DNA from: Bacteriovorax sp.
GTDB lineage: Bacteria; Bdellovibrionota; Bacteriovoracia; Bacteriovoracales; Bacteriovoracaceae
Direction: 5' to 3'
Assembly (NCBI GenBank): GCA_028710485.1
Contig: JAQTTZ010000002.1
Location: 1-64,000, forward strand
DNA length: 64,000 nt
The translations under genes and the position numbers were made by a program. Position 1 is the stretch's first letter, and each line of letters opens with the position of its first letter. This document shows, in pieces, positions 51,649 through 56,676 of the stretch. A model generated the notes under the pieces. The model saw nothing but the letters and a program-made list of their open reading frames with translations. It ran no database searches and was not told the DNA's origin.

Positions 51649-52818
51649 TTATAGAGTTAGGGTATGAGTAAAACTGTCTCGCTTGTAAGTCATCTCTTTA
51701 TACTCATCTTCGACCTCACTCAGCAAAGTGATGCCACCACCAGCTTGATAGAGCATAGTATAGTTCTCGAAGTCCACGACACTTGATCTTATATTGATAG
51801 ACGCACTCTTCATTTCTTTATACAAAATTAATGTTGAGCCACAATAAAATCCACGCTCACGTTTTTCTAATTCCTGAATTAATCTCATTGATCTTTTTTT
51901 TGGTGCTCCCGTAATACTTCCTCCCGGAAATAGTTTTTCAATCACTTTCCACAAATTTACAGAGGCACTTAATTCAACATCAATTTGCGAGTATTGATGA
52001 AGTAAACCTGGAACTAATTTAGGAAATTTCTTTTTTACTATTTGTGCGCGAGGAAACTCTATACGAGAAAGATCATTGCGAAGAAGATCACTGATCATAT
52101 AAAGCTCAGCTTGGCTTTTTTTATCATTCACCAAAGTCTTCCATAACGGCTTCCAATCTTCAGAATCAATTCTTTTAAGCGTTCCTTTTATCGGCATTGC
52201 AGAAAGAGTTTTTTCTCTGTGTTGAAATAAACACTCTGGAGAATTACTTAGAAATAATTTTTTAAAAAAAGGTATATAGGTAGCAGATCCATAGGCCCCC
52301 CTAGAAGCTTTATCTCTCCATAGAGAAAACAGGAAATCCTCAGGCCTTAAATATTCTTTAAAAGAATATAGATAAGGATAAGTGAGATTGAATTGATAAC
52401 AATTTCCCTTTAATAATTCCTCATAACCCGTTTCAAATGATTTTTTATAATCTTCGAGACTCGGACAGCTTAGAGGCCTCAATTCAATTTTGTTGAAGAC
52501 TGAAGGCTCAATCACTTGAAAAGAATTAAAATGAATATCAATAACCAGCATGGTCTCAACACTCAAAAGTTGAAATTCATTTTCGATTAAAAAACCTAAC
52601 TCATAAAATAAATGAATGACTCTGGGAAGATCGAAGCTGGAACTGAGGAGGATTTTCTGATTCTCTTCAATCCAATTATTAAAATCATATGAAAAACTAT
52701 GACCCGTTAGCAGATCTATAGCGTGATAGCGGTAATAGGCAATTGCCTTATTCGCTCCGGCCAATTTTAGCAATTGGTATTTATAAGGAATTATTGAAAA
52801 AAGATTATTGTCCGTCAC
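51649..52818 (-). CDS. pabB: Aminodeoxychorismate synthase component I / anthranilate synthase-like chorismate-binding enzyme
   Basis: 'FPGGSITGAPKKRSMRLIQELEKRERGFYCGS', 'YQAGGGITLLSEVEDEYKE'. Confidence 0.88.
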   Translation of the reverse strand: MTDNNLFSIIPYKYQLLKLAGANKAIAYYRYHAIDLLTGHSFSYDFNNWIEENQKILLSSSFDLPRVIHLFYELGFLIENEFQLLSVETMLVIDIHFNSFQVIEPSVFNKIELRPLSCPSLEDYKKSFETGYEELLKGNCYQFNLTYPYLYSFKEYLRPEDFLFSLWRDKASRGAYGSATYIPFFKKLFLSNSPECLFQHREKTLSAMPIKGTLKRIDSEDWKPLWKTLVNDKKSQAELYMISDLLRNDLSRIEFPRAQIVKKKFPKLVPGLLHQYSQIDVELSASVNLWKVIEKLFPGGSITGAPKKRSMRLIQELEKRERGFYCGSTLILYKEMKSASINIRSSVVDFENYTMLYQAGGGITLLSEVEDEYKEMTYKRDSFTHTLTL

Positions 52819-54160
52819 GGTGAGCAGCTAGATTTTCAAAGCTAGTATAAGCACCAACCCAAGCGAGCTTCGCAGTACCAATTTCTCCTGCACGGTTCTT
52901 TCCAACGATAATTTCTGCAATCCCCGGCTCTTTTGTGTCAGGGTAATAAACTTCGTCTCGATAAACGAACATGACGATATCCGCATCCTGCTCAATCGCT
53001 CCAGACTCTCGAAGATCGGCAGTAGAAGGGCGCTTGTTTGGACGAGACTCAACACCGCGGTTAAGCTGTGAAAGGGCAATGACCGGACAACCGAGTTCCT
53101 TCGCCATTGTTTTGAGCCCACGAGAAATTTCCGCAATCTGTTGCTCACGTTGAATATTTTTACTGGTTGACCCCATCAACTGCAAGTAGTCGATGACGAT
53201 TAAACCAAGACCTTGATCGGCCTTAATTTTACGACTCTGACTTTGAATATCTAGAATGGTTGTGTTCCCTGAATCATTGATATAAATCGGCAACGATGAG
53301 AGCTCCTGAGTCGCTTTAGCGATACTTCTTAAATCGGTATCTAAGAAAGCTTTCTTACGAACTCTTTTTGAATCGACTTTCGCCCGTCCTGTAAGAAGTC
53401 TCATCGATAATTCCGTCGCTAACATCTCTAGAGAAAAAATTACACAAGGAAGACCTGATTGAATACATGCACTCACTGCCACATTCAGTGCCAGAGAGGT
53501 TTTTCCCATAGCAGGACGAGCTGCAAGAACGATAAGCTGTCCTGGTTGCATTCCCAATAAAAGTTCGTCTAATCGAGGATAACCCGTCGAGAGACCTGAA
53601 ATCTCTCCCATCAATCTAGATGTATCTTCTAATTCTTTTAAGTTTTGTTTTAAAGTGGCATTAAGCTTTACCATCGAGCCGGTTTTAGCGTCGTTGGTAA
53701 GTTTAAAGAAACTTGATTCTACTTCTTGAATAAAATCATCTGCGTCTCCAGAGTACGACATCCCCATCTGCACCACTCTCATGGCCGTGCGGATAATTTC
53801 TCGCATTGAAGATTTGTCTTTTACAATTTTGGCGTAGTCATACACATTGGCCGATGAAGCTTGGTCTTCAACAAGACTCAAGACAAAAGATTGACCGCCT
53901 ACTTCTTCAAGTTTTCCCTTCTCTTGAAGTTTAGAACAAACAGTAACGTAATCGATCGCGCGGTTAGCGAGAGAAAGATCGGCAATGACGTCGAAAATAA
54001 TCCCGTAGCGGGGATCATAAAAATGATCCTGAGTAATTTTTAGATTCGAGATTTCATCAAATACAGAGCCATCGATAATTAAACAACCAACCATTGCTTT
54101 CTCGGCTAATAGATCATGAGGAAGTTCATTAACTTGATTATTATTATCATTTCTGGCCAT
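52805..54160 (-). CDS. dnaB: Replicative DNA helicase DnaB
   Basis: 'LVLAARPAMGKTSLALNVA', 'IVIDYLQLM', 'ALSQLNRGVESRPNKRPSTADLRESGAIEQDADIVMFVYRDE'. Start at ATG 54160 rather than 54223. Confidence 0.97.
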   Translation of the reverse strand: MARNDNNNQVNELPHDLLAEKAMVGCLIIDGSVFDEISNLKITQDHFYDPRYGIIFDVIADLSLANRAIDYVTVCSKLQEKGKLEEVGGQSFVLSLVEDQASSANVYDYAKIVKDKSSMREIIRTAMRVVQMGMSYSGDADDFIQEVESSFFKLTNDAKTGSMVKLNATLKQNLKELEDTSRLMGEISGLSTGYPRLDELLLGMQPGQLIVLAARPAMGKTSLALNVAVSACIQSGLPCVIFSLEMLATELSMRLLTGRAKVDSKRVRKKAFLDTDLRSIAKATQELSSLPIYINDSGNTTILDIQSQSRKIKADQGLGLIVIDYLQLMGSTSKNIQREQQIAEISRGLKTMAKELGCPVIALSQLNRGVESRPNKRPSTADLRESGAIEQDADIVMFVYRDEVYYPDTKEPGIAEIIVGKNRAGEIGTAKLAWVGAYTSFENLAAHRDGQ

Positions 54161-54223
54161 ATTTGTCCCTTGTTTGCTTCGGCTCCTGCCTCTCGCGTAT
54201 ATCCCATACTGGGAATAAAACAA

Positions 54224-54314: not shown

Positions 54315-54929
54315 TTAAGATCTTAAAAGCTTGTCTACTTCAGCTTTTAATCTTTGCTCTTCAGTCAATTCAACAGCAACTGCTTCAGTCGCTCCTGATG
54401 CTTTTAACTCTGCTGCAGCTTTTTTACGAGCTTCAGCATTTTTTAGAGCTTCTTCTTGATTTCTTTTTAGCTCTTCAGCTTGCTTAGGATCAATAGAAAC
54501 TTTAATTTTGAAAGTCGCTTCTACATCTTGGAAAATTTTCGCTTTTGCGTTAAAAATTCCAAGACCTTTAATAGGCGCTTCAAGGTGAATTAATCTTCTT
54601 TCAACTTCAACTCCGCGGCTTTCAAGTTCTTTAGAAAGTTCAGCGTTTGTTACAGTTCCGAAAAGTTTTCCTGACGCTCCAACTTTTTTAATAAGTTCGA
54701 TAGTCATACCTTCGATTTTTACTTTTAATTCATTAGCCGCATCTTTTTGAGCTTGGATTTTTTTTGCAAGACTTTTTTGTTGAGCTGCCAATAGGTTTTT
54801 GTTTGAATCGTCAGCAACCATTGCAAAGCCATTTGGCACTAGATAGTTTCTAGCGTGACCTGCTGATACGTTAACGATTTCACCGATATTTCCAAGAGCT
54901 GGAACTTTTTCAGTTAAAATAACTTTCAT
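54315..54929 (-). CDS. rplI: 50S ribosomal protein bL9 with extended C-terminus
   Basis: 'MKVILTEKVPALGNIGEIVNVSAGHARNYLVPNGFAMVAD', 204 aa. Confidence 0.96.
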   Translation of the reverse strand: MKVILTEKVPALGNIGEIVNVSAGHARNYLVPNGFAMVADDSNKNLLAAQQKSLAKKIQAQKDAANELKVKIEGMTIELIKKVGASGKLFGTVTNAELSKELESRGVEVERRLIHLEAPIKGLGIFNAKAKIFQDVEATFKIKVSIDPKQAEELKRNQEEALKNAEARKKAAAELKASGATEAVAVELTEEQRLKAEVDKLLRS

Positions 54930-55939
54930 AATATATCTCCTTCGTCCTTTTTTTTGTTCGTTAAAAATTTTCTAAAATCAAACCATAAATCAAACATTCC
55001 GAGTATCGCTAAAAATTTGTAGGCCATCACTAAAGTGAAAACTACAAACATTGTCTTCAAAAATCCGCCAATCTTTAAATACTTTAAAAAAGCATTGTAG
55101 ACGCCGAAGCCTTGAAATAAGTAAAACACACCCAAACTGTAAAGAAGATTAGTACCGATAACTTCAGCAACCTTAGGAAGACCGTAATCTGCACCCACGA
55201 CGCAAACCAAAGATAAAATCAAAGGCCATACGAAGAAATCGGGAGCTCTGAAATTAATCAGATCTTTTAAGCTGAACGAATAAGGATGTTTGAATCGCCA
55301 ACTGGCTGAATTACGAAGAGTCATATAGAGACTGATCCACAACCCAAAAAAGGCAAATACAAAAATAGCCGCCGGCAAGACACCATAAATTTCATTGGCA
55401 AGCTCTTCTGGCCTTGAAATGAAATCTTGAAAGGCGCGAGCTTCTTCTCCGTTTGAAGTGAGGGCTTCATTATTCTTATTCTGTTCTTTCACCATCGCCA
55501 TCAGCTTAACAACCGAAGCCTTAAGCTCCGCTTTCACTGAAGTCTTGCTGAACTGATTGTAAGCAATCAGCGATCCACCAACCAAGGTTACTAAAATAAT
55601 TCCGGCGTAAATTAATCCTTTAACAGGATTAATATTTCGAAGAATCACTTCCGCAATCAAGAGGGCATACAAAAATGCAGTTAAATACATTCCTGCGATC
55701 ACAAGCGGGATAGCAAATTTTACTGAAACAAACCAAAGAGCGCTGGTGCAAATTCCGCCGATGAACAATGTGGTTAATCGTCCATAAAGAAGAAAGGCCA
55801 GAATCAATGGAACCGGTGCAAATACAGAAAGTGGCCCAAAAGAACAAAGAGCAACAGAAATGACAGCAAGGAACATCAGCTTCCCGAAGGACGCTCGCTG
55901 ATCAAAAACTTTGTTGGTTTGAACTTCAGGTGTTGTCAT
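54926..55939 (-). CDS. DUF2232 (YybS-like) multi-pass membrane protein
   Basis: Hydrophobic multi-TM protein in the rpsF–rplI block; 'VLPAAIFVFAFFGLWISLYMTLR', 'VWPLILSLVCVVGADYGLPKVAEVIGTNLLYSLGVFYLFQGFGV'. Confidence 0.75.
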   Translation of the reverse strand: MTTPEVQTNKVFDQRASFGKLMFLAVISVALCSFGPLSVFAPVPLILAFLLYGRLTTLFIGGICTSALWFVSVKFAIPLVIAGMYLTAFLYALLIAEVILRNINPVKGLIYAGIILVTLVGGSLIAYNQFSKTSVKAELKASVVKLMAMVKEQNKNNEALTSNGEEARAFQDFISRPEELANEIYGVLPAAIFVFAFFGLWISLYMTLRNSASWRFKHPYSFSLKDLINFRAPDFFVWPLILSLVCVVGADYGLPKVAEVIGTNLLYSLGVFYLFQGFGVYNAFLKYLKIGGFLKTMFVVFTLVMAYKFLAILGMFDLWFDFRKFLTNKKKDEGDIL

Positions 55940-55947
55940 ACTCTAAC

Positions 55948-56589
55948 TTAAGCTCTACCAGCTGTTTGGTTAGAAAGGTAACTTGAAATTCCAAGATTTC
56001 TAGCATGCTTAATAGCTGAGTTAGAAAATCTTTGGTGCTTCATTGAAATCCCAGAAACTCTAGCTGGTGAAATTTTTCCAAATTCACTCACTAACCAGTT
56101 CCAAGTTTGAGGATCTTTCCAATCAGCTTTGATTTTCTTAGCTGTAAACCAGCAAGATTTTCTCTTAGCAAATTTTCTTCTATCGTCTTCCATATCTTCG
56201 AAACCTTCTTCGTCGTCTTCTCTCTTGTTATCAAGAACAGATCCGTTACGAGTTTTTGAAAATGGAGATTTGAAGTTTTTAGCAAGTTCTTCTTTTTCAG
56301 CGTCTACACCGATAACAAAAACCATTGAACGCATAACGCCTTCATTGATACCAAATCTTCTAGTCAACTCAGTGTTAGCTTGAGTGTTTGACTTGAACAT
56401 AAAGTAATGGAAATGACCGTGTTTTGCACCATTAGCATATGGTTGTGCTAAGTGAAGTTTTCCCCAATCGTCAGCAATTAAAAGTTCTCCTTCGAATCCT
56501 TTTAACGTGTCTTTAACAATCTCTGCGATCTGTGCGTGAGCTTCTGCTCCGAGCTCTGGCTTTGTCACTACGGACAACTCATAAATCAT
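55948..56589 (-). CDS. Fused ribosomal proteins bS6 (N-terminal) and bS18 (C-terminal) in one ORF
   Basis: N-terminal S6 'MIYELSVVTKPELGAEAHAQIAEIVKDTLKGFEGELLIADDWGKLHLAQPYANGAKHGHFHYFMFK'; C-terminal S18 'RRKFAKRKSCWFTAKKIKADWKDPQTWNWLVSEFGKISPARVSGISMKHQRFSNSAIKHARNLGISSYLS'; no stop between. Confidence 0.9.
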   Translation of the reverse strand: MIYELSVVTKPELGAEAHAQIAEIVKDTLKGFEGELLIADDWGKLHLAQPYANGAKHGHFHYFMFKSNTQANTELTRRFGINEGVMRSMVFVIGVDAEKEELAKNFKSPFSKTRNGSVLDNKREDDEEGFEDMEDDRRKFAKRKSCWFTAKKIKADWKDPQTWNWLVSEFGKISPARVSGISMKHQRFSNSAIKHARNLGISSYLSNQTAGRA

Positions 56590-56676
56590 AATATCCCCCT
56601 GGACTAATAAAAATTAGGCCCTGTTCCACAATGGAACAGGACGAGTAATTCAAGTTTTCATCAGCGCAAGATAACA

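Follow-up and report, generated by a model that had tools for sequence, protein, structure and literature searches.

A fused rpsF-rpsR gene encoding an S6-S18 chain in Bacteriovorax and its relatives

The fused gene and its surroundings

The window analysed here is a stretch of 64,000 nucleotides from an assembly of Bacteriovorax sp. On its minus strand, at positions 55948-56589, lies an open reading frame (ORF) of 213 amino acids that begins with an ATG at 56589, ends with a TAA at 55948 and contains no internal stop in its translation. An earlier note, made from the sequence of this stretch, had described the frame as starting as bS6 and ending as bS18, and both the translation and the Pfam domains bore this out. 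The bS6 domain was located at residues 3-91 (56317-56583, minus strand) by Pfam PF01250 (Ribosomal_S6; E 2e-16, 60 bits, exceeding the gathering score) and by a search of the genome. The bS18 domain, at residues 140-205 (55975-56172, minus strand), was assigned with NCBIfam TIGR00165, whose curated cut-off was exceeded, and with the pattern of its cysteines; Pfam Ribosomal_S18 (PF01084) matched residues 151-201 (E 1e-12, likewise exceeding the gathering score). The NCBIfam model for S6, TIGR00166, gave 40.6 bits against a cut-off of 42.9, about 2 bits short, which suggests that the S6 half has diverged. The two domains are joined by residues 92-138 (56176-56316, minus strand), which comparison with the unfused loci L073-L077 divided into an S6 tail (KNFKSPFSK...) and a variable acidic stretch ending in EDMEDDRR. 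We annotated the whole as a fused rpsF-rpsR gene from the reading frame, the profile matches and the occurrence of the same fusion across the class.

Separate rpsF and rpsR genes elsewhere, which the earlier note had named as grounds for refutation, were not found: in the whole 4.3-Mb assembly there was one place matching S6 and one matching S18, both in this ORF. Among the structure matches listed, no solved chain spanned both S6 and S18, and an AlphaFold model of the fusion, calculated with ten close sequences as input, had a pLDDT of 37, too low for the model to be used.

The genes that follow on the same strand were assigned by profile matches. A DUF2232 membrane protein gene (54926-55939) comes next in the operon after a gap of 8 nt and is overlapped by 4 nt by rplI, encoding ribosomal protein bL9 (54315-54929), and dnaB, encoding the replicative helicase (52805-54223), lies beyond it. 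Apart from the fusion, the locus is thus an ordinary rpsF-rpsR-rplI-dnaB neighbourhood. In E. coli, priB sits between rpsF and rpsR. A gene resembling that of a single-strand DNA-binding protein, judged by sequence and position, was observed between rpsF and rpsR in an outgroup of the same phylum (L008, 688-1674), where it is placed like priB of E. coli. In the class of Bacteriovorax, rpsF and rpsR are directly adjacent, which is a precondition for fusion.

Distribution and history of the fusion

Our class sample consisted of 129 genomes, all of one family, and 119 of them matched the fused protein when it was used as the query. By our count, one uninterrupted ORF covered both domains in 110 of the 119, among them genomes assembled into one contig (G133) and two contigs (G015); the junction that the earlier note had proposed to look for in related genomes was therefore recovered in nearly the whole class. 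Separate, adjacent S6 and S18 genes were found in five genomes (G014, G031, G091, G092 and G095), contig ends cut the locus in three (G013, G021 and G137), and the remaining one, G101, had an in-frame TAA at the S6-S18 junction. This last locus (L082; G101:C61, with the junction at about 11.8 kb) carries a gene of the fused type with that single TAA in the linker and with no ATG, GTG or TTG from there to the S18 cysteine; the TAA may be due to sequencing error or be read through, or S18 may start in an unusual way. The nearest named records were metagenome-assembled genomes labelled Bacteriovorax sp. or Bacteriovoracaceae. Outside the class, no fused S18 was present among the phylum matches listed, in which all S18 frames were unfused and at most 155 amino acids long. 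No publication on an S6-S18 fusion was found in the open-access literature, which misses most subscription journals, and the domain architecture may already be present in databases. As a separate observation, one genome (L081, G103:C102) contains a second, unrelated S6 with a long K/R/G-rich tail, which is probably contamination of G103.

The fused and unfused members of the class differed in a second respect. The CX2C...CX2H motif of S18 binds zinc in other bacteria (PMC11791143). This ribbon was present in all five unfused S18 proteins of the class versus none of the 70 fused ones; the S18 of the window has kept the first cysteine and lost the ribbon (SCWFT...SMKHQ), no CX2C was seen in the S18 part of L106 and L118, and the S18 of G101, split only by the TAA, was also of the fused type without a ribbon. 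Only 4 of 20 sampled outgroup loci had the ribbon, indicating that it is lost without fusion elsewhere in the phylum. Hence, the association between fusion and ribbon loss in the class may go back to a single event in its history and does not prove causation.

We then compared the junctions. In most unfused members, S6 stops soon after a YKSPF-like motif and S18 starts 11-65 nt further on; the N-terminal extension of this S18 is acidic and of low complexity and closes with (D)xDKDRRMFSRKKSCWF. In the fused members, an S6-like tail (YKTPFSKKYNGS) precedes an acidic segment that is shorter and closes with DxEKDKKRFxRRKSCWF. These linkers vary in length and sequence and are rich in D, E and G, the K/R-rich start of S18 being their most conserved part; the S18 cysteine lay at residues 133-148 in all 70 sampled fused loci, and the linker was in frame throughout. 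From the comparison with the unfused relatives, the acidic linker most likely descends from the N-terminal extension of S18 itself, and we infer that the S6 stop was lost and the gap and the S18 extension were shortened in the fused lineage. These changes would have been accompanied by the loss of the zinc ribbon.

A single event in the class, starting from neighbouring rpsF and rpsR genes, probably produced the fusion, a history that the sequence comparisons favour and do not settle. In a tree of S6 and S18, calculated from both domains with the linker left out, a branch (SH-aLRT 86) separated all fused rows and G101 from the unfused members, which lay outside. In a tree of DnaB and L9, three unfused genomes branched first, but unfused L076 (G095, a genome of 1.6 Mb) was placed among fused lineages with fair support (96/84), so that two or three changes are the fewest that the DnaB and L9 trees would need. 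Unless the DnaB and L9 tree is misled, this placement is at odds with one origin and argues for a fusion that arose repeatedly or was split again in some lineages, an account that concerns the history only and that we regard as unlikely but not negligible. Against multiple events stand the S6 and S18 tree, which unites all fused rows, and an AU test on a larger, 58-row set, in which a single fused clade was not rejected (p 0.10-0.12). Re-splitting would furthermore imply that the zinc ribbon was regained, since all five unfused members keep it.

The leader RNA upstream of rpsF

Immediately upstream of the fused gene, a leader RNA conserved in the class was recognised at 56590-56670 on the minus strand by alignment and by a covariance model (56587-56670, 56.5 bits), and the copy in the window was the only match of the model in its genome. 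Across the class, the leader consists of (A)CUCGCUC-stem-GGGCC, an A/U-rich spacer and AGUCCAGGAGG, immediately upstream of the ATG. In the window, the covarying hairpin H2 occupies 56618-56642 (minus strand; z -3.1 in a single-sequence fold), and a near-invariant CC followed by the Shine-Dalgarno sequence (CCAGGGGG) was identified from the leader alignment at 56595-56602 (minus strand), so that the Shine-Dalgarno sequence just upstream of rpsF lies inside the leader element. In 49 sequences, seven of the eight pairs of H2 showed compensatory changes on both sides, and 94.6% of the cells could pair overall, with three H1 pairs counted in. The covariation was 0.600 compared with 0.199 for shuffled alignments and collapsed on a shift of one column. 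The CUC on the 5' side of the hairpin can also pair with the Shine-Dalgarno sequence in 97% of cells; this pairing is weakly supported because the variation is one-sided.

The covariance model also matched upstream of unfused rpsF genes, both in L076, which was a training sequence, and in the outgroup L008 (E 0.02), which lay outside the training set. L073-L075 gave no match to the model, and their CCG and hairpin were recognised by eye only. An Rfam search of the leader returned no match, and we present it as a candidate for a new or divergent rpsF leader model.

In E. coli, the S6:S18 complex binds the rpsF leader and represses expression about fourfold, and K60 and R63 of S18, which bind rRNA and the leader cytosines, matter for this repression (PMC4647458). 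The class leader resembles the E. coli rpsF leader in its site and in the order hairpin, CC (UCCG in E. coli), Shine-Dalgarno sequence, the equivalence of its CC to the E. coli cytosine pair being assigned by position only; it differs from the known leader in having no Rfam match and in that a single chain, not a dimer, would be the effector. Both K60 and R63 (E. coli numbering) were invariant in 69 of 69 fused proteins. By analogy, the leader is most likely an S6:S18-binding regulatory site, and its order and position together with the invariant K60 and R63 make it likely that the fused chain represses its own mRNA.

The product of the locus and its relation to known systems

S6 and S18 are a textbook pair, which normally dimerises before binding the S15-bound 16S rRNA and regulates its own mRNA as a dimer. 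With good though incomplete confidence, we propose that the fused gene yields one chain, a tethered S6 and S18 at 1:1, which enters the 30S subunit, that this fusion had a single origin and that the chain probably represses itself through the leader. In this scheme, bS6 and bS18 would be made as one polypeptide with the linker of about 45 residues, and the chain would fold as an intramolecular S6:S18 pair. The dimer would then be pre-made at an exact 1:1 ratio and would enter the 30S platform as a unit, and the same chain, as a single-molecule effector, would repress its own translation at the leader. A bolder version, in which the tethered S6-S18 is never cleaved anywhere in the class, the fusion replaced a zinc site that had stabilised S18 and the chain is a self-repressor acting through the leader, is tentative and somewhat more doubtful than not.

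The strongest competitor concerning the product is that the fused chain is a precursor, with a protease cutting the acidic linker, either once the chain is made or when it is already on the ribosome, to release separate S6 and S18, as happens in kind to eukaryotic ubiquitin-ribosomal protein fusions, which are processed. A long, acidic linker that is variable and rich in D, E and G is what would be expected of an exposed flexible stretch, and nothing in its sequence forbids cleavage. However, no class-wide cleavage motif was evident in the linker, and a fusion that was always cut would give no obvious reason for its near class-wide retention; we accordingly judge processing to be rather improbable.

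The earlier note had also proposed that a separate S18 might start at an in-frame ATG at 56193 (56191-56193, minus strand; residue 133). The ATG is indeed there, would yield a protein of 81 amino acids and is preceded in the window by AGGT at a distance of 9 nt; what did not hold up is its conservation as a start, which we judged from the start codons of the fused genes and from comparisons within the genus. Start codons were counted in 69 fused genes over the interval from 28 to 6 codons before the S18 cysteine, and these counts are approximate, three of the 69 (L112, L133 and L145) having been registered on a cysteine of the S6 tail. On this approximate count, 31 genes had no ATG, GTG or TTG in the linker region, and 33 had some ATG, which in many cases was the -7 codon shared by one group of genera. 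A Shine-Dalgarno match of at least 4 nt accompanied a start of any kind in 11 genes, while the ATG of S6 itself had one in 63 of the 69. The S18 genes of unfused relatives have their start well upstream of the position equivalent to 56193 and encode a longer N-terminal extension ahead of the cysteine. We rejected the general use of an internal S18 start, as no start is conserved outside the genus and the Shine-Dalgarno sequence is not kept.

Within this genus, the 56193 ATG, which is kept in 10 of 10 aligned members, might still yield a free S18 alongside the fusion. The Shine-Dalgarno-like bases, however, vary at synonymous sites (GAAGAAGGTTTCGAAGATATG in the window versus GAAGCTGGATTTGAAGACATG in L067), the synonymous divergence at residues 125-141 is 0.36-0.39 and is not reduced, and the conservation of M133 is explicable by the amino-acid motif GFEDMEDD. 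Together with the lack of conservation beyond the genus, this makes a dual output here very unlikely. Synonymous divergence in the genus also dips at residues 142-165, but we discarded this as evidence for a start close by, since the codons there, for W, K, D and F, leave little room for synonymous change. In many members the fusion is thus the one product in evidence, and here it is likely the main one. Finally, a join of two adjacent genes by assembly or sequencing error, conceivable in a fragmented assembly of 234 contigs with 8% contamination, is ruled out, as is chance, by the same full-length fusion in 110 of 119 genomes, which represent many genera and include near-complete assemblies, and in named records that were assembled independently.

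The tethered chain corresponds to the bS6:bS18 heterodimer of the 30S platform in having both domains, K60 and R63, and rplI and dnaB nearby; it differs in being one linked chain with no free S6 C-terminus or S18 N-terminus. The description in the earlier note of the fusion as a covalent version of this known heterodimer is well supported by the single copies, the class-wide conservation and the retained K60 and R63. At the interface, all sampled class members carry W for S18 Y23 and Q for S6 Y49 (E. coli numbering from Met), unlike the known heterodimer. Because these residues are common to fused and unfused members, the interface changed before the fusion. The ubiquitin fusions UBA52/RPL40 and RPS27A likewise contain a ribosomal protein within a longer chain, but they are processed and their partner is non-ribosomal, whereas both halves of S6-S18 are ribosomal and touch on the ribosome. 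In the human mitoribosome, bS6m and bS18m are bridged by a [2Fe-2S] cluster (PMC11791143). That case is similar in coupling the two proteins beyond a plain interface through the same cysteine region of S18; it employs a metal cluster where the fusion has a peptide chain, and the fused S18 is without metal ligands.

A natural fusion of this kind would fix the S6:S18 ratio and the order of assembly, and offers a natural test of the effect of tethering two parts of the ribosome. With it, one can examine whether a free dimer step, a free S6 tail and a free S18 N-terminus are required, and its association with the loss of the zinc ribbon points to a concrete way in which a metal site could become dispensable in evolution. 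In practice, annotation or stoichiometry pipelines that expect separate rpsF and rpsR genes will miscount this class.

In E. coli, RimK targets the free tail of S6 and RimI the free N-terminus of S18. A RimK-family protein was observed in the genome of the window (G000:C185:38003-38854, 282 bits) even though S6 has no free C-terminus in the fusion; the RimK model also matches other ATP-grasp ligases. Genes of the RimK and RimI families were set aside as markers of the fusion, as they were matched in fused and unfused genomes, paralogues included. The protein bS21 adjoins S6 and S18 on the 30S platform. Its score was 35-58 bits in this class (G000:C98:18966-19124 and relatives) compared with 69-88 bits in other classes of the phylum, and S18 likewise scored lower in this class than in the others; these two platform proteins may have diverged together.
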